The notes beneath the pieces were generated by a model. That model had not been told where the DNA came from. It saw nothing but the letters and a program-made list of their open reading frames with translations, and searched no databases. From an uncultured Bacteroidales bacterium (GTDB lineage Bacteria > Bacteroidota > Bacteroidia > Bacteroidales > UBA932), in contig CAMKAJ010000006.1 in the NCBI GenBank assembly GCA_946410455.1, positions 1 through 64,000 of the forward strand: 64,000 bases of DNA, given 5' to 3'. Position 1 is the first letter of the stretch, and each line of letters opens with the position of its first letter. Of this stretch, positions 44,637 through 52,437 are shown one piece after another. Both the position numbers and the translations under genes were made by a program.

Positions 44637-45341
44637 ATGGATGTGGATTTCTTGGCCGGCCTTATCCGGGACTTACTACTCGAGCACGACAGCCTAAATT
44701 TGCCGGGCTTTGGTTGTTTTGTGGCGGAGGAAATGCCTGCCTCGTTCTCTGACAGGGGATTTATCCTGAATCCACCCTACAGAAGGCTGGGTTTTGTGCC
44801 GGAAGAAGGGGACGATTCGCTGCTCTCTGCATCTTACAGGCAATTTTCGGGCAGTTCCGGCGATGATAGTGAGCTAGTTCACTTTCTCAACGAAGCAAAA
44901 GAACAACTCATGCAGAACTGCAGCCTTGTCCTTCCAGGGCTTGGCCGATTTAAACTTACGGGCAGTGGCGGCATAATGTTCATGGCCGAGGAAACGCTGG
45001 ATATCTCTCCCGATTCTTGCGGGCTGCGGCCGGTGTCCCTCAATGTGTCTGCCCCCAACCCTCAAAATGCTCAGCCGCGACGCAGCACTCCTTCAGCAGC
45101 TAAAGCGAACCCCGCCTCCGCAGCGGCCGCTCCGAAACCTGCCGCTCCCGCCAATTCCCGCAAGCAGCTCCCGGCGTTCTGGCGCATAACGCTGAGCCTT
45201 GTAATTACCGCTGCAGTACTCCTCGGAGGCTTCGTGGCTCTCTCGCGCTTCGCTCCCGACATTACAGACAAACTCCTCTATACCCCAGAAGAGCTCGAAA
45301 TCCTGAATTATCCCGAAGATGGACTTAATTTATCCCGTTAG
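44637..45341 (+). CDS. HU-CCDC81-like domain protein with one membrane helix
   Basis: 234 aa. The N-terminus has the HU-CCDC81 fold pattern ('LIRDLLLEHDSLNLPGFGCFVAEE', later 'QLMQNCSLVLPGLGRFKLTGSGGIMFMAEE' as a second repeat). It is followed by an Ala/Pro linker, a membrane segment 'ITLSLVITAAVLLGGFVAL' and a short tail. Relatives in Bacteroidetes often carry a C-terminal SPOR domain that binds glycan strands; none is present here. First gene of the wall operon; overlaps the NUDIX gene by 23 nt. Role inferred to be envelope-related. Confidence 0.82.
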   Translation: MDVDFLAGLIRDLLLEHDSLNLPGFGCFVAEEMPASFSDRGFILNPPYRRLGFVPEEGDDSLLSASYRQFSGSSGDDSELVHFLNEAKEQLMQNCSLVLPGLGRFKLTGSGGIMFMAEETLDISPDSCGLRPVSLNVSAPNPQNAQPRRSTPSAAKANPASAAAAPKPAAPANSRKQLPAFWRITLSLVITAAVLLGGFVALSRFAPDITDKLLYTPEELEILNYPEDGLNLSR

Positions 45342-45879
45342 CATAGCCCCTCTGGCACCTGGCGCCAAAGTCGGCAGGGAAATGATCCCCATCGTAGAGG
45401 AGAGCGGGACGGTTACCGCCAGGGCTCCAAGAGCATGGGTGCATCAGGGCACCAAGCCACTTCACCCGGTAGTCCATTTGCACATTATAGACCGATACTC
45501 CCGCATATATCTGCAGAAACGCGGTCCTAAGAAGACGCTGCTACCTCTGCGCTGGGACACCGCTGTGGGCGGACATGTAACTTACGGCGAGTATCTTAAG
45601 GAGGCGCTTTTCCGCGAAGCCGGCGAGGAGCTGGGCTTCTACGATTTCTTCCCCGTACCTATACGCACGTACATTTACGAGTCCAGAACCGAAAAAGAAC
45701 TGGTCAACGTTTTTGCCGCCGTGGGCAACTTTGAGCTTCATCCCGACGGTGACGAGGTGGCAGAGGGCCGCTGGTGGGAGATTTCCGAACTCGAAGCTGC
45801 AATAGGAAAGAATATATTAACCCCGAATCTGGAGCAGGAGTTCCCAATGGTGAAGCAAGCCCTGCTCGCGCTACTCTGA
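45319..45879 (+). CDS. NUDIX hydrolase
   Basis: 186 aa cytoplasmic pyrophosphohydrolase. The NUDIX box reads 'GGHVTYGEYLKEALFREAGEELGF', containing the REAxEE core. The N-terminal strand pair 'HPVVHLHIIDRYSRIYLQKRG' resembles IDI-type NUDIX proteins. Substrate unknown; the position between an envelope protein and the DUF4922-SpoIID fusion suggests a nucleotide-sugar or diphosphate house-cleaning role. The stop forms TGATG with the next gene. Confidence 0.88.
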   Translation: MDLIYPVSIAPLAPGAKVGREMIPIVEESGTVTARAPRAWVHQGTKPLHPVVHLHIIDRYSRIYLQKRGPKKTLLPLRWDTAVGGHVTYGEYLKEALFREAGEELGFYDFFPVPIRTYIYESRTEKELVNVFAAVGNFELHPDGDEVAEGRWWEISELEAAIGKNILTPNLEQEFPMVKQALLALL

Positions 45880-47990
45880 TGGACCTGCTAAGTAAATTCA
45901 TAAAAGACCAGCTGTCGGTGTGGCCACTGGCATCCGCAAACTTCCGCGCACTTAAATCCATGAAGGTGCGCAGCGTTGCCCTGGACGGACTGGAAGCTAA
46001 AATCCAGTACAATCCTTGCCGCATCATTTCCAGTACAGCCAAGATAGATGAGGCGTCACTCGCCGCCAGGCCCTGTTTCCTGTGCGAGGAAAACCGGCCA
46101 CCGGAGCAATTCCACATAAAGTTCGAGGGCCGCAAGGGCCGCAGCTACAACGTTCAGGTTAACCCTTATCCGATTTTCCCGCGCCACCTTGTAATAGCCC
46201 GGTCCGAGCACCTGCCGCAGGCTATATGGCACCATCTGCCGGATATGCTTGACTTTGCTGCAGCTTACAACGATTTTACGGTCTATTACAACGGGCCCAA
46301 GGCCGGAGCGTCGGCTCCAGACCACCTGCATTTCCAGGCTGTTCCCAGACGGTCTCTGCCCCTGGAAGTCGCTGTAGATGCGTTCCTTGAGGCTCCTGGA
46401 GAAGCTCTTGCCAGCGTTAAAGATGCACGCCTCTATCATTTCAGAAGATTCACGAGGGGCATCTGGTGCATCAAGGCAGACACCACCAAGTCCCTGGCGA
46501 AGCTTTTCTACCAGTTTCTGGACTGCTGCCCGGTTGCCGACCCCGGACTGGAGCCGCGATTCAACCTGTACGCATGGTTCAAGCCCGAGGCCAAAGAATA
46601 CCGCGTGATGGTAGTTCTCCGCACCGAGTTGCGCTCACACCATTATTATACTGACGGTCCGGACCACCTGACCATAGGCCCCGGAGCAGCGGAGATGGCG
46701 GGAGTATTTGTGGCCCCAGAGGAAGCTGACTTCGAGAAAGCCACTCCGGCGCAGCTTCAACAGATGCTGTACGAGGTAAGCGTGAGCGAGGCCGACGAGG
46801 CGATGATAGATTCCCGCCTGACCCGTAGCCAGCGAGAAATCGAAGTGGGCATAATGTCTGCCGATCAAATAGAGTTCGAGATTATTTCCGACGGCGCCGG
46901 TCCCCAGCGGGTAAGCATAATGGACGGCCGCATCAATTACAACGGAGCCTTGTACGATGAGCTATACTTCGATTCTGTAACCCGGTCCACCCTGTTTGCC
47001 GAGCCGTCGTTCATATTGCGTAACGTCCCCATAGGCATAGATTTCCACTGGCAGCGCACGCAGACGCAGAAATTTGCCGGTTCACTCAAATTCATTGCCG
47101 AGGGTGACAAGATTACGGCAATCAACAAACTGGGGCTGGAGGATTACCTGCTCAGCGTCATTTCGTCCGAGATGCGCGCAGAGGCCTCGCTGGAGTTTCT
47201 CAAGGCCCACGCCGTAATTTCGCGCAGCTGGGCCCTCGCCAGGATGGATGACAGGCGCAACCCCGAGTCTGCCGAGTCCGCCATTCCCCACGAACGTTAC
47301 GACGTTTGCGCAGACGACCATTGCCAGCGCTACCAGGGCCTTTCTCTTGCAGTCGGCGAGAATGTGCGCAAGGCCATAGACCAGACCTGGGGGCAGGTCC
47401 TGGTGTACAAAGACAGGCATGGGAAGACCAGTATCTGCGACACTCGCTTCTCTAAGTGTTGCGGAGGCCGCAGCGAACTTTTCAGCACATGCTGGGAAGA
47501 CCGAGACTATCCTTACCTGCAGAGCGTTGAGGACCCCTATTGCAATTGCACTGACAAAACCATTCTCTCCCAGGTGCTGAACGACTACGACCTGGAAACG
47601 GCAGATTTCTACAAGTGGGAGCAGCGTTACCGCCGGGCCGAACTCTCCGAGCTTGTGCGCAGCCGCACAGGCATAGACTTCGGTACCATTCAGTCGCTGG
47701 AGGCAGTGGAGCGTGGCCCTTCCGGAAGGATTAAGTACCTCCGTATTGTTGGGAGCCTGCGTACAGAAGTGATAGGCAAAGAGTTGGCTATACGGCGCGC
47801 GCTCAGCAGCTCGCATCTCAAAAGCTCCGCCTTTGATATCATAGTGGAAGGTGACACCTTCATTCTCAAGGGGCGCGGCTGGGGCCACGGAGTGGGTCTC
47901 TGCCAGATAGGCGCCGCAGTCATGGCAACTAAAGGATTCAGTTACAAAGAGATACTTAAGCACTATTATGAAGCCGCAAGCATCGAGTAA
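45879..47990 (+). CDS. DUF4922 (HIT/GalT-like)-SpoIID fusion protein, no signal peptide
   Basis: 703 aa. Residues 1-330: DUF4922 with 'AGASAPDHLHFQAVPR', an H-x-H-x-Q motif like Ap4A phosphorylases and GalT nucleotidyltransferases. Residues about 330-700: SpoIID/LytB domain with 'GLEDYLLSVISSEMRAEASLEFLKAHAVISRSWAL', 'RYQGLSLAVGENVRKAIDQTWGQVLVY', 'FSKCCGGRSELFSTCWEDRDYPYLQSVEDPYC' and 'GRGWGHGVGLCQIGA'. SpoIID proteins elsewhere are exported glycan-strand enzymes, but this one starts MDLLSKFIKDQL with no export signal and should be cytoplasmic. Start fixed by TGATG coupling at 45879. Overlaps ampG by 23 nt. Confidence 0.88.
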   Translation: MDLLSKFIKDQLSVWPLASANFRALKSMKVRSVALDGLEAKIQYNPCRIISSTAKIDEASLAARPCFLCEENRPPEQFHIKFEGRKGRSYNVQVNPYPIFPRHLVIARSEHLPQAIWHHLPDMLDFAAAYNDFTVYYNGPKAGASAPDHLHFQAVPRRSLPLEVAVDAFLEAPGEALASVKDARLYHFRRFTRGIWCIKADTTKSLAKLFYQFLDCCPVADPGLEPRFNLYAWFKPEAKEYRVMVVLRTELRSHHYYTDGPDHLTIGPGAAEMAGVFVAPEEADFEKATPAQLQQMLYEVSVSEADEAMIDSRLTRSQREIEVGIMSADQIEFEIISDGAGPQRVSIMDGRINYNGALYDELYFDSVTRSTLFAEPSFILRNVPIGIDFHWQRTQTQKFAGSLKFIAEGDKITAINKLGLEDYLLSVISSEMRAEASLEFLKAHAVISRSWALARMDDRRNPESAESAIPHERYDVCADDHCQRYQGLSLAVGENVRKAIDQTWGQVLVYKDRHGKTSICDTRFSKCCGGRSELFSTCWEDRDYPYLQSVEDPYCNCTDKTILSQVLNDYDLETADFYKWEQRYRRAELSELVRSRTGIDFGTIQSLEAVERGPSGRIKYLRIVGSLRTEVIGKELAIRRALSSSHLKSSAFDIIVEGDTFILKGRGWGHGVGLCQIGAAVMATKGFSYKEILKHYYEAASIE

Positions 47991-49239
47991 GAGCTCCCCA
48001 TGGCTATGGATTCCCACCCTATACTTCGTGGAGGGCCTGCCATATTTCATAGTCAACACCATCTCCCTCATAATGTTCAAAGACATGGGAATGGACAACG
48101 GCACGCTGGCTCTGCTTACGAGCCTCATCAGCATACCGTGGGTGGTGAAGCCTCTTTGGAGCCCCTTCGTAGATATCTTCAAGAGCAAGCGCTGGTGGAT
48201 TATCAGCATGCAGATTATTATGCTGGCCACCATAGCTCTCACTGCTGCATCGGTGCGGCTTAGCACCTTCAGCGTCACGCTCATTCTCTTTATAATAGCA
48301 GCGTTCGCCTCCGCTACGCACGACATTGCAGCCGACGGTTTCTATATGATAGCGCTCGACAAGAAACAGCAGTCGGCGTTCGTTGGAATCAGGAGCACCT
48401 TCTATCGCATTGCTTCCGTGTTCGGCCAGGGTGTTCTGGTAGTCCTTGCCGGAGTGCTTGAGCGCGCCCTGGGCGACATACCTCGTGCGTGGTCGCTGAC
48501 TATGCTGATATCTGCGGCCATACTGGCGGCATTTACCCTGTACCACTGCTTCGCCATTCCCCGCCCGGCCGACGACCGAAGCGTAGGCGAGGCGCGCAGC
48601 GCAGCAGACATTTTCCGAGAATTCGGCGGTGCGTTTGCATCATTCTTCCAAAAGAAAGGAGTGTGGCTGGCGATAGCGTTCATGTTGCTGTACCGGCTTC
48701 CGGAAGCATTCTCTGTAAAGATGCTGTTCCCCTTCTTCAAAGATCCTGCAGAGGCGGGAGGCCTGGGATTCAGCACCGATATGTTCGGCATTGTATATGG
48801 CACCTTCGGAGTGGTTGCTCTGCTTGCCGGAGGTATTCTCGGAGGTCTTGCTGCCGCCCGAATGGGATTGCGCAAGTGCTTGTGGCCTATGGCTTTGGCG
48901 CTGGCACTCCCGTGCTCTGTATATTTATTCATGAGCATCGTACAGCCCCAGAACGTATGGGTAGTGGGCAGCTGCGTAGTGCTCGACCAGTTTGGTTATG
49001 GCTTCGGCTTTTCAGCCTACATGCTCTACATGATGCATTTCTCTCAGGGCCCGCTCAAGACTTCTCATTACGCCATCTGCACTGCCTTTATGGCTCTGTC
49101 TATGATGCTCCCCGGACTAGTGGCCGGATACTTGCAGGAGGCGCTCGGATATGTTGGATTCTTTATTCTTGTAATGATATGTTGTATCGCCACTTTCTGC
49201 GTCACATTCTTTGTGCGGCGGCGCTTGCCGCAGGAATAA
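47968..49239 (+). CDS. AmpG-like muropeptide MFS permease
   Basis: Inner-membrane MFS transporter, 423 aa, about 12 hydrophobic segments. 'PTLYFVEGLPYFIVNTISLIMFKDMGM' and 'SATHDIAADGFYMIAL' are typical of the AmpG group, which imports GlcNAc-anhydroMurNAc (peptides). Its place between a SpoIID fusion and NamZ supports a muropeptide substrate. The start overlaps the fusion gene and the end overlaps NamZ by 61 nt. Confidence 0.87.
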   Translation: MKPQASSKSSPWLWIPTLYFVEGLPYFIVNTISLIMFKDMGMDNGTLALLTSLISIPWVVKPLWSPFVDIFKSKRWWIISMQIIMLATIALTAASVRLSTFSVTLILFIIAAFASATHDIAADGFYMIALDKKQQSAFVGIRSTFYRIASVFGQGVLVVLAGVLERALGDIPRAWSLTMLISAAILAAFTLYHCFAIPRPADDRSVGEARSAADIFREFGGAFASFFQKKGVWLAIAFMLLYRLPEAFSVKMLFPFFKDPAEAGGLGFSTDMFGIVYGTFGVVALLAGGILGGLAAARMGLRKCLWPMALALALPCSVYLFMSIVQPQNVWVVGSCVVLDQFGYGFGFSAYMLYMMHFSQGPLKTSHYAICTAFMALSMMLPGLVAGYLQEALGYVGFFILVMICCIATFCVTFFVRRRLPQE

Positions 49240-50432
49240 GCCTCAGCGCTCAGGTCAAACCCGGCATCGAAGCCCTCGTAGACACTAACTTCGAAGGCCT
49301 CAAGGGCAAACGCGTGGGCCTTCTGACCAACCCCAGCGGGGTGGACAGGCAGCTCCGTTCTACAATAGACATACTCAACGAGAACGTAAACCTCGTAGCG
49401 CTTTACGCCCCCGAGCATGGGGTACGAGGCGATATCTGGGCCGGGGGCAAGGTAGAGTCAGGAGTAGATAAAGCCACCGGTCTTCCTGTCCATTCTCTGT
49501 ACGGGGCTACGCGTCAGGCGACCCCGGAGATGCTCAAGGATATAGACATTCTGGTGTACGATATTCAAGATGTGGGCTCGCGCTCCTATACCTTTATCAG
49601 CTGCCTTGGGCTTACCATGCGCACATGCGCAAGTCTTGGCATCCCTGTGATGGTGCTCGACCGCCCCAATCCTCTGGGCGGGCTTAAGGTTGAAGGGAGC
49701 GTGGTGCGCGAAGGATTCTTTTCTTATGTGAGCCAGTACCGCATTCCATATATATATGGACTCACGGTGGGGGAAGTTGCTACTCTTATCAACGAAGAAG
49801 GGCTCAACCGGGGCCAGAAAGGCGATCAGCCGCCGGTGAAGTGCGAGCTTATAGTTGTGCCTATGGAGGGCTGGAAGCGCAGTATGACTTACGACAAAAC
49901 GGGCCTTCCCTGGGTGATGCCCTCGCCAAATATCCCTTATCCGCGTAGCGCTATATGTTACCCCTGCTCCGGGCTTACGGGAGAGTTTAACAATTATTTG
50001 AATGTAGGCATCGGCTACACCATTCCTTTCGACGCTTTTGCGGCAGAGTGGATAGACGCCGACGAGCTTAAGGCCAAGCTGGACAGTTACAACGTGCCCG
50101 GCGTGGCCTGGAGGGCAGTCCATTATACTCCTTTCTATGGCAGCAGCGCCCGCAAGCTCATCCACGGAGTGCAATACTACTTTGTAGATTACGAGGCTGT
50201 GCCGCTCACGCTTCTGCAGTTTTACGTAATGCAGGCGGTGTACGAATTATACAAGGTCAACCCGTTCGAGCGCTCCGAGGGGCGCCTGGCGATGTTTAAT
50301 AAAGTTTGTGGAACAGATTTTGTCAGTAAAGAGTTCAGCAAGCGTTTCCGGGTGTCGGATATAGAAAGCTATTGGACAGCAGATGTAGAAGATTTCCGGA
50401 CCTTGTCGAGAAAATACTACATTTATCGTTAA
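49179..50432 (+). CDS. namZ: Exo-beta-N-acetylmuramidase NamZ (DUF1343)
   Basis: 417 aa. DUF1343 family, whose characterised members release MurNAc from the non-reducing end of peptidoglycan fragments. Seen: 'GLKGKRVGLLTNPSGVDRQL', 'ALYAPEHGVRGDIWAGG', 'VYDIQDVGSRSYTFISCLG', 'VLDRPNPLGGLKVEG', 'PWVMPSPNIPYPRSAICYPCSGL'. I place the start at ATG 49179 because it supplies a clear signal peptide (MLYRHFLRHILCAAALAAGISLSAQ) encoded entirely inside the end of the permease gene in another frame. The ORF-track start at 48489 is shadow. Periplasmic. Confidence 0.92.
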   Translation: MLYRHFLRHILCAAALAAGISLSAQVKPGIEALVDTNFEGLKGKRVGLLTNPSGVDRQLRSTIDILNENVNLVALYAPEHGVRGDIWAGGKVESGVDKATGLPVHSLYGATRQATPEMLKDIDILVYDIQDVGSRSYTFISCLGLTMRTCASLGIPVMVLDRPNPLGGLKVEGSVVREGFFSYVSQYRIPYIYGLTVGEVATLINEEGLNRGQKGDQPPVKCELIVVPMEGWKRSMTYDKTGLPWVMPSPNIPYPRSAICYPCSGLTGEFNNYLNVGIGYTIPFDAFAAEWIDADELKAKLDSYNVPGVAWRAVHYTPFYGSSARKLIHGVQYYFVDYEAVPLTLLQFYVMQAVYELYKVNPFERSEGRLAMFNKVCGTDFVSKEFSKRFRVSDIESYWTADVEDFRTLSRKYYIYR

Positions 50433-50444
50433 AACCTCAGACTT

Positions 50445-51689
50445 ATGAAACACTTGACCAGAATCGCAGCTTTGATAGTGGCAGCCACTGTCTTTGCTCT
50501 CCCGCTAAGTGCCCAGTCTCATGGTCGCAACAACGGCGGTTCAAATAACCACGGCAGTTCCCACAGTTCGGGGGTTACAAGCAGCCATAGCCGCTCCGGC
50601 AGCAGTTCTTCTCATCACGTTAGTTCCGGCAGCAGTTCTTCTCATCACGTTAGTTCCGGCAGCAGCGGCGGTACGCGCCGTTCCGGCAGCGCCGTTTCTT
50701 CTTCGTCTTCCAGCAGCCGCCCCGGCGGTGGCAGTTCGGTTTCCAACAGCCGTCCCTCTGGCGGCAGCAGCAAACCCTCCGGCGGCTCTATTTCCAGCGG
50801 CCGTCCTGATGGCGGCAAGCCTTCCGTATCAAATGGCAACGGCAATCATCGTCCCGGCCGAAATGGCGGCAGCGTACGTCCCCGCGACGGCCATCGTCTC
50901 GGCGGAAATGGCGGCAGCGTACGTCCCCGCGACGGCCATCGTCCCGGCGGAAATGGCGGCAGCGTGCGTCGCCATGACGGCCACCCGGGTCGCGTTCAGG
51001 TGAATCCCCGTCCGGGCAATCACCCTCACCGCCCTCCTCATGGAGAGTTTGTGGGCAAGCCTGCACGATTCAACCATCATGGCCCTCATGGCTACGGCTA
51101 CTATGTAACCACCAGGCCTATCCACTACGAAATCAGGCACTATCATGGCATAGACTACTATTTCTGGAATGATGTCTGGTACAGGTACAACTTCGGCCGC
51201 TATTGGGTATGCCGCCCTCCTTTCGGCTATGCATTCACACCGCTTGCCGATGCTGTTTTTGCCGCGTGCAGCTTTGCCTATTATTACGATGTGATCAGTG
51301 AGGGCGAGCGCACCATCGCAGAGCAGAATGCTACTATCGCAGCTAATAATGAGGTGATAGCCGAGCAGAACAGCGAGATTGCTGCCAACGCCCGCAAGGT
51401 TTCGGAGTCCAGCTCACTGGCTGAGTCTCTTGGGCTGAGCCAGAGCTTCGCAAAGGCCGGCACCGAGTACTATTACAACGACGGAGTGTTCTACGTCAAG
51501 GGTGACGACGGACAGTATATAGTAATCGTACCTCCTGCAGGCGCCCTGGTGGACGCTCTTCCCGGCGACTACGAGCTCATAGAGCTTGGCGGGAACACCT
51601 ACTACAAGGTAGATGATACCGTGTACAGGATGACCATAAGCGAAGAGGGCAAAGCTTGCTTCGAGGTGCTTGGACAGCTTAAAGTCTGA
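50445..51689 (+). CDS. DUF6515-type secreted protein with Ser/His- and Gly/Arg-rich repeats
   Basis: 414 aa with signal peptide MKHLTRIAALIVAATVFALPLSAQ. Residues 25-130 are Ser/Gly/His-rich, including a direct repeat of about 10 residues (SSSHHVSSGS). Residues 135-185 carry three 15-residue repeats NGGSVRPRDGHRxGG. Next comes an aromatic region 'YYFWNDVWYRYNFGRYWVCRPPFGYAFTPLAD' typical of DUF6515, a coiled-coil-like 'EQNATIAANNEVIAEQNSEIAAN', and a C-terminal beta domain with two 'YYYNDGVFYVK'-like units. Envelope location likely; function unknown. 1 nt before murI. Confidence 0.75.
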   Translation: MKHLTRIAALIVAATVFALPLSAQSHGRNNGGSNNHGSSHSSGVTSSHSRSGSSSSHHVSSGSSSSHHVSSGSSGGTRRSGSAVSSSSSSSRPGGGSSVSNSRPSGGSSKPSGGSISSGRPDGGKPSVSNGNGNHRPGRNGGSVRPRDGHRLGGNGGSVRPRDGHRPGGNGGSVRRHDGHPGRVQVNPRPGNHPHRPPHGEFVGKPARFNHHGPHGYGYYVTTRPIHYEIRHYHGIDYYFWNDVWYRYNFGRYWVCRPPFGYAFTPLADAVFAACSFAYYYDVISEGERTIAEQNATIAANNEVIAEQNSEIAANARKVSESSSLAESLGLSQSFAKAGTEYYYNDGVFYVKGDDGQYIVIVPPAGALVDALPGDYELIELGGNTYYKVDDTVYRMTISEEGKACFEVLGQLKV

Positions 51690-51690
51690 C

Positions 51691-52437
51691 ATGGCAACAA
51701 TAGGCGTATTTGACTCAGGCTCAGGTGGCCTTTCAGTTCTCAGGGAGATTCGAAAGCTTCTCCCTGAGAGTCGTTTTATTTATTATTCAGACAACGCCTA
51801 TTGCCCGTATGGAGAAAAGACGGCGGAGTTCGTTACCGATCGCAGCCGCGCTGTCACCGATCTGCTGCTCTCCAAAGGTGCCGATGTGATAGTAGTTGCC
51901 TGCAATACGGCAACGGCTGCTGCAATAGCCACGCTCCGTGCTGAATATAAAGTTCCCTTCGTGGGCATGGAGCCGGCAGTCAAGCCGGCGGCCAGCGGTA
52001 CCCGCAGCGGAGTGGTTGGAGTATTGGCTACGGCAGGTACGCTCAGAGCTCCTAAGTATCTGAATACCAAAGGACAGTATGCCGATGCGGTGAAGATTGC
52101 CGAGCGTGTGGGCAAGGGCTTTGTAGAGCTTGTAGAGAATCTCGATCTCGACAGCCCTCATGCAGAGTCGGTGGTTCGGGCAAGTCTGCAGCCGCTGTTG
52201 GATGAAGGGGCTGACACTGTAGTGCTTGGATGCACTCACTATCCATTCTTGCTCCCGTTGATGCAGAAGATAGCCCCCGACGGCGTGCGTTTCATAGATC
52301 CGGCCCCTGCTGTGGCAAGGCGGCTGGTGGATGTGCTGGATACAGCAGGCTTAGCTCGGGAGTCGTCCTCACCCGGTGTAGAGCTGCTGGCATCCGGCAC
52401 CGATACAACATTAAGAAAACTGTTTACCATATTATAG
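51691..52437 (+). CDS. murI: Glutamate racemase
   Basis: Makes D-glutamate for peptidoglycan, cytoplasmic, 248 aa. 'IGVFDSGSGGLSVLREI', first catalytic Cys in 'VVACNTATAAAIA', second in 'VVLGCTHYPFLLP'. Start ATG 51691, one base after the preceding stop; the ORF start at 51670 lies inside the upstream gene. Its presence supports a wall-metabolism theme for the operon. Confidence 0.95.
   Translation: MATIGVFDSGSGGLSVLREIRKLLPESRFIYYSDNAYCPYGEKTAEFVTDRSRAVTDLLLSKGADVIVVACNTATAAAIATLRAEYKVPFVGMEPAVKPAASGTRSGVVGVLATAGTLRAPKYLNTKGQYADAVKIAERVGKGFVELVENLDLDSPHAESVVRASLQPLLDEGADTVVLGCTHYPFLLPLMQKIAPDGVRFIDPAPAVARRLVDVLDTAGLARESSSPGVELLASGTDTTLRKLFTIL

Follow-up and report, generated by a model that had tools for sequence, protein, structure and literature searches.

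Our analysis of a 64,000-nucleotide (nt) stretch of contig CAMKAJ010000006.1 from an uncultured Bacteroidales bacterium (the window) concerned a gene that fuses a DUF4922 domain to a SpoIID/LytB lytic transglycosylase domain and is followed by genes encoding an AmpG-type permease and the exomuramidase NamZ. On balance, we consider it probable, to somewhat better than an even degree, that this module is a Bacteroidales muropeptide-salvage operon in which imported wall disaccharides are processed in the cytoplasm by a SpoIID-type enzyme without a signal peptide, together with a glycosyltransferase of family 2 (GT2) and usually DUF4922. What is new here is a SpoIID subfamily that is predicted from sequence to be cytoplasmic and that belongs to a salvage operon partly known from Tannerella forsythia. 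We found no prior description of this subfamily in the literature on DUF4922 or on SpoIID in Bacteroidetes, subscription journals lying mostly outside the coverage. The gene set, the fusion, the absent signal, the folds, the conserved active-site residues and the co-occurrence patterns reported below are computed observations.

The fusion and its partners across Bacteroidales

The initial annotation had described three adjacent and overlapping genes. These form part of a same-direction run in which a NUDIX gene, the DUF4922-SpoIID fusion, the permease gene and the NamZ gene follow one another, with overlaps of 23 nt between fusion and permease and of 61 nt between permease and NamZ. Taken from its earliest start, the open reading frame of the fusion covers positions 45774-47990. 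The host genome (G000) is of Bacteroidales type, comprises 2.13 Mb in 50 contigs and is 94.6% complete; its closest named relatives are metagenome-assembled genomes labelled 'Bacteroidales bacterium', Candidatus Cryptobacteroides and Candidatus Merdivivens.

The survey, directed at chromosomal operons, covered 80 loci from named Bacteroidales genomes, and this SpoIID was present in all 80 of them. It occurred as a DUF4922-SpoIID fusion in 44 loci, as a GT2-DUF4922-SpoIID triple fusion of approximately 1,200 to 1,300 amino acids in 26 loci (Prevotella and relatives, L076-L109) and as a separate protein in 10. Since 44 of the 80 loci, all from other genomes, share the fusion and 26 more carry the triple form, the architecture is neither a chance event nor an assembly artefact. 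In the triple fusions, the stretch N-terminal to the GT2 match also resembles a degenerate GT2 domain. Of 74 eligible loci, 66 encoded AmpG directly 3′ of SpoIID; NamZ was found at a distance of no more than 6 kb in 34 of 60. The gene order in a Dysgonomonas locus (L098) was Golvesin-type protein, GT2, DUF4922, SpoIID, AmpG, NamZ, MurK-like kinase and MurQ, and that in a Bacteroides locus (L110) was symporter, GT2-DUF4922, SpoIID, AmpG, MurK-like and MurQ. The muropeptide-salvage setting, first read from AmpG and NamZ, is borne out in relatives by MurK, MurQ, a MurT-like symporter (5′ in two loci) or AmgK-MurU next door, and the observation proved more general than the single locus shows.

The earlier reading of pathway and compartment stands as far as sequence tells; it was incomplete because it missed a third partner, the GT2 enzyme. 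In Prevotella-type genomes, this protein and DUF4922-SpoIID form one polypeptide; in others its gene lies just 5′, and in the window's genome it is unlinked, on another contig (G000:C8:69276-70556), with 63% identity to its Dysgonomonas counterpart. Across a sample of 79 genomes of the order, drawn almost entirely from different families, this distinctive GT2 and SpoIID were found in the identical 20. At the level of the phylum, the full-length, predicted cytoplasmic SpoIID and DUF4922 (E < 1e-40) occurred in the identical 28 of 198 genomes, that of the window included, often unlinked. In those loci without DUF4922 that were inspected, the GT2 gene overlaps the SpoIID gene directly.

Folds, active sites and predicted location of the fusion protein

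Residues 7-155 of the fusion matched DUF4922 (PF16269) with an E value of 1.1e-54. When this half was modelled alone from a single sequence, the predicted local distance difference test score (pLDDT) was 39.9 and the model was discarded; we used the full-length AlphaFold2 model instead (41-sequence alignment, mean pLDDT of 89.8, predicted template modelling score of 0.83). Foldseek comparison of the N-terminal half with the PDB retrieved the yeast Ap4A phosphorylase Apa2 (E value of 4e-11), the Arabidopsis GalT-like protein At5g18200 and Escherichia coli GalT. Moreover, a profile of 13 diverse DUF4922 proteins aligned with Apa2 over the segments NPFPIFPEH...FYNGP...DHxHFQ (E value of 1.6e-4). 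The H-x-H-x-Q motif noted in the initial annotation corresponds to residues 149-153; H149 and H151 are invariant in the 13 proteins, as is H111, and Q153 is kept in 12 of them. In the alignment, H151 falls on the second of the two histidines in the Apa2 motif, which is presumed to be the nucleophile. We take C66-x-x-C69, H111 and H149-x-H151-x-Q153 to correspond to the zinc site and nucleophile of GalT. An H-x-H-x-Q motif in a HIT fold marks the GalT/Apa2 branch of the HIT superfamily, and both the motif and the matching fold were found here. Judged by this fold, DUF4922 is most likely a nucleotidyl transferase or a nucleotide-sugar phosphorylase. It resembles Apa2, GalT and plant GDP-L-galactose phosphorylase (GGP) in fold and aligned motif, and GalT also in the CxxC pair, but it differs from all three in that the sequence similarity is marginal, as the profile match to Apa2 illustrates, and in that its partners are wall-sugar genes. 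One plant GGP homologue has been classed under DUF4922 (PMC9871823).

The C-terminal half belongs to the SpoIID/LytB family, as it scored 185.7 bits against TIGR02669 (cut-off of 83.3) over residues 413-702 and matched PF08486 with an E value of 1.8e-24 (86.6 bits, cut-off of 23). Against TIGR02870, the equivalog model of Stage II sporulation protein D, it reached 142.6 bits, below the cut-off of 234.75. The best structural matches in the PDB were the SpoIID proteins of Clostridioides difficile (5i1t; E value of 2.5e-18, TM score of 0.77 by target length) and Bacillus anthracis (E value of 2.3e-15). Glu431 aligned with the SEM motif of the latter, and this residue and the motifs CADDHCQ and GWGHGVGLCQ show no or almost no variation across very diverged members of the subfamily. 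Domain score, fold, SEM glutamate and the CxxxHCQ and GHGVG motifs are therefore shared with the known SpoIID/LytB lytic transglycosylases (Bacillus subtilis, C. difficile, B. anthracis, Waddlia). The subfamily differs from these in having neither a signal nor a membrane anchor, in having GT2 and DUF4922 as fused or separate partners, and in motifs of its own (FHWxRxE, CDARFSKCCGG and SHLYSSAF).

The N-terminus of the fusion, MDLLSKFIKDQLSVWPLASANF, is without a hydrophobic signal, in agreement with the initial annotation. Elsewhere in the family, other genera have stand-alone SpoIID proteins whose genes overlap the end of the 5′ gene; these proteins begin with M(x)EPxxxVGI or similar and also have no signal. 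The same signal-less start (M(x)EPxIxVGI...) recurs in Dysgonomonas, Bacteroides and distant families of the phylum. As a control, we inspected 12 secreted paralogues of SpoIID from the phylum, and these carry an N-terminal hydrophobic segment. Inspection of the sequences by eye revealed no signal or anchor of an extracytoplasmic SpoIID protein in fused or stand-alone members, and the fusion has no C-terminal extension beyond the SpoIID domain. Because the signal is also missing from stand-alone proteins of other genera and families, the cytoplasmic state is predicted to be a property of the SpoIID subfamily and not of the fusion. To our knowledge, every SpoIID protein characterised so far acts outside the inner membrane.

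Proposed cytoplasmic salvage and alternative explanations

A counterpart of the module appears to be the ampG-murTKQ operon of T. forsythia, which is expressed as a single transcript 'xanthan lyase-gtf-gtf-lytB-ampG-ybbC-murTKQ' (PMC5388701). In this operon (Tanf_08345-08385), lytB is annotated as 'amidase enhancer precursor' and ybbC belongs to the NamZ family (PMC5388701, PMC7670621). The gtf genes, lytB, ampG, ybbC and murT-murK-murQ stand in nearly the same order as in the Dysgonomonas locus described above. The T. forsythia AmpG is required for growth on sources of N-acetylglucosaminyl-N-acetylmuramic acid (GlcNAc-MurNAc) and GlcNAc-anhydroMurNAc, and it works although it shares just 27% identity with E. 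coli AmpG; T. forsythia is without the kinase AnmK, and the fate of anhydroMurNAc there was called unexplored (PMC7670621). In the cited papers, on the other hand, lytB is not treated as cytoplasmic and DUF4922 is not named, and the window differs from the T. forsythia operon in its fusion of DUF4922 with SpoIID, in having GT2 at an unlinked site and in the lack of adjacent murTKQ genes.

Most genomes with the set lack the anhydroMurNAc kinase AnmK. It was absent from 18 of the 20 genomes of the order with the set versus 5 of the 59 without it (Fisher p = 2e-11), from 19 of 28 versus 44 of 170 genomes of the phylum (p = 3e-5) and from 22 of 41 versus 4 of 19 genomes of the window's own family (p = 0.03), all three values ignoring shared ancestry. 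The direction was the same at each level and the contrast was weaker outside the order. The window's genome, at the completeness given above, yielded no match to AnmK (PF03702); it encodes AmgK-MurU on contig C5 and MurQ on contig C28. As in the E. coli AnmK route, the likely input is imported anhydroMurNAc, the 1,6-anhydro ring of which must be opened. Unlike in that route, the fusion has no ATP-binding kinase domain, and AnmK is either unmatched, as here, or found in the same genome as the set, as in 9 of the 28 phylum genomes and 19 of the 41 own-family genomes. Because of this coexistence in many genomes, a strict replacement of AnmK by the set was rejected.

The substrate, direction and products of the set we infer as follows. 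Outside the inner membrane, NamZ would trim MurNAc off wall fragments. GlcNAc-MurNAc and GlcNAc-anhydroMurNAc disaccharides would enter the cytoplasm through the AmpG-type permease, and there the signal-less SpoIID-type enzyme and GT2, usually with DUF4922, would break down the imported sugar. The likeliest step for SpoIID would be to open or cleave the MurNAc or 1,6-anhydroMurNAc linkage with water, that is, to run the lytic transglycosylase reaction as a hydrolase. The resulting plain MurNAc could then enter AmgK/MurU or MurK/MurQ, the SpoIID step standing in for AnmK. DUF4922 would most likely catalyse nucleotide transfer between sugar-1-phosphates and nucleotide sugars, or else the phosphorolysis of a nucleotide sugar. 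Lytic transglycosylases form 1,6-anhydroMurNAc by internal attack, and the classical SpoIID substrate is an internal MurNAc-GlcNAc bond. Supplied with water, the same active site would be expected to open the anhydro ring. A precedent is the chlamydial SpoIID, which uses water in a muramidase-type hydrolysis of peptide-free glycans (PMC6635528).

We favour cytoplasmic salvage because the signal is absent, because SpoIID is fused to GT2 and to a nucleotidyltransferase fold of cytosolic type, and because AmpG, MurK, MurQ and AmgK-MurU surround the set. It is further favoured by the exact co-occurrence with GT2 and DUF4922, the frequent absence of AnmK, the T. forsythia operon, the chlamydial precedent and the conserved glutamate and motifs. 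The analysis provides a concrete candidate for the reuse of wall sugars by Bacteroidales once AmpG has imported them, namely a predicted cytoplasmic SpoIID with two partner enzymes that nearly excludes AnmK at the order level. It also corrects a likely misannotation of lytB as 'amidase enhancer precursor', in an operon widespread among gut bacteria, and offers a possible pathway for DUF4922.

Several observations weigh against this interpretation. Imported disaccharides offer no internal MurNAc-GlcNAc bond to cut, and simple hydrolysis does not account for the role of GT2. AnmK coexists with the set in the genomes counted above, and the p values of that contrast disregard shared ancestry. The permease lies below the curated TIGR00901 cut-off (178 versus 350 bits), although this remained its best-scoring NCBIfam family. 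The T. forsythia lytB product is tentatively placed in this SpoIID subfamily by gene order. Finally, DUF4922 gave no match in 7 of the 41 SpoIID-bearing own-family genomes. For this reason, we rejected DUF4922 and SpoIID as obligate partners everywhere, and DUF4922 would not be needed for the core step.

Alternatively, the protein could be a classical lytic transglycosylase at work in the cytoplasm: longer or NamZ-type fragments containing a MurNAc-GlcNAc bond would be imported and cut to anhydroMurNAc for AnmK or other enzymes. We regard this as unlikely yet deserving of serious attention, as it retains the known SpoIID chemistry, agrees with the conserved fold and glutamate and fits those genomes in which AnmK accompanies the set. 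The known AmpG substrates, however, are disaccharides (PMC7670621), and additional anhydroMurNAc would have no onward route, given that AnmK is usually missing from these genomes and appears to be missing from the window's genome.

A more elaborate scheme, which we consider speculative and rather unlikely, is an energy-saving route without a kinase in which GT2, DUF4922 and SpoIID replace NagZ and AnmK on imported GlcNAc-anhydroMurNAc. An inverting GT2 would run in reverse, using UDP to release anhydroMurNAc and UDP-GlcNAc; phosphorolysis by DUF4922 would split this nucleotide sugar into GlcNAc-1-phosphate and UDP; and SpoIID would open the anhydro ring to yield MurNAc or, with phosphate, MurNAc-1-phosphate. 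If true, a lytic transglycosylase fold would have been turned into an anhydro-sugar hydrolase or phosphorylase.

The exact tracking of SpoIID by GT2 in the order and the triple fusion in Prevotella-type genomes would also suit a biosynthetic set, in which an intracellular glycan or conjugate containing MurNAc would be assembled or modified by GT2, the GalT-like enzyme and SpoIID, with the permease handling this product; the T. forsythia operon was earlier termed glycosylation-related (PMC5388701). We think this improbable, since the T. forsythia AmpG was shown to act as an importer that growth on wall fragments requires (PMC7670621), and MurK, MurQ and NamZ, encoded in the same operons as the set, are catabolic or salvage enzymes. 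Even less probable is a catalytically dead SpoIID sensor or scaffold that binds imported muropeptides and regulates the GT2/DUF4922 pair: it would explain the stable association with two other enzymes, but the near-invariance of the SEM glutamate, CADDHCQ and GWGHGVGLCQ exceeds what is expected of a dead domain. Export of the fusion by an unrecognised route, with SpoIID acting in the periplasm as its characterised relatives do and next to a secreted NamZ from the same operon, is the least credible explanation given the signal-less N-termini, the cytosolic-type fusion partners and the missing C-terminal extension.

Features of the window and neighbouring genes

The positions of the features are compiled in Table 1. 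Both NamZ domains scored above their cut-offs (NamZ_N, 265 bits; NamZ_C, 109.5 bits), and the N-terminus of the protein, MLYRHFLRHILCAAALAAGISLSAQ, is a clear signal peptide when read directly from the sequence, as befits a secreted enzyme of this family.

Table 1. Positions of the module and its features in the window
Feature	Position	Strand	Basis
NUDIX hydrolase	45319..45879	+	PF00293, E 1.7e-11; 5′ neighbour of fusion, 1-nt overlap
DUF4922-SpoIID fusion, 703 aa, without signal peptide	45879..47990	+	Pfam/NCBIfam matches and AlphaFold2 model
N-terminal half, aa 1-300: DUF4922, HIT/GalT-Apa2-like fold	45879..46778	+	PF16269; Foldseek
C66-x-x-C69 (CFLC), resembling GalT zinc site	46074..46085	+	Invariant in 13 diverse DUF4922 proteins
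H149-x-H151-x-Q153 motif (HLHFQ)	46323..46337	+	Alignment of 13 DUF4922 proteins; Apa2 alignment
C-terminal half, aa 413-702: SpoIID/LytB lytic transglycosylase domain	47115..47984	+	TIGR02669, PF08486, Foldseek
Putative catalytic Glu431 (SSEM motif)	47169..47171	+	Invariant in predicted cytoplasmic and in secreted SpoIID
AmpG-family muropeptide permease (MFS)	47968..49239	+	TIGR00901, E 1.9e-52, 178 bits; MFS_1
NamZ exo-beta-N-acetylmuramidase with signal peptide	49179..50432	+	NamZ_N, E 4e-79; NamZ_C, E 3.5e-31

The NUDIX gene lies 5′ of the module in 25 of 60 eligible loci and is conserved beside it only in the window's clade. A gene for a secreted Ser/Gly/His-rich protein with a DUF6515 C-terminus (50445-51689), kept in approximately 25 relatives, separates NamZ from the wall-precursor gene for glutamate racemase MurI (51670-52437), one gene 3′ of NamZ; MurI is conserved nearby in the window's clade, often on the opposite strand. 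The HU, NUDIX, MurI and DUF6515 neighbours were considered as members of the module and rejected as clade-limited synteny.

Three further arrangements were seen among the relatives. A fusion of an AmgK-like kinase with the C-terminal domain of RapZ, followed by MurU (L042:8985-11166), adjoins the module on its 3′ side in four Cryptobacteroides-type loci; in the window's genome, this arrangement lies on contig C5 (G000:C5:40537-41946). A single 840-amino-acid reading frame (L075:11218-13737) contains both AmpG and NamZ with a signal-like hydrophobic stretch at the junction, and possibly represents an importer-exomuramidase fusion. In seven related loci, a lipoprotein-like serpin (PF00079; E value of 7e-87 in L043) is encoded between AmpG and NamZ (L043:12652-13908, with equivalents in L053, L057, L061, L063, L067 and L070).

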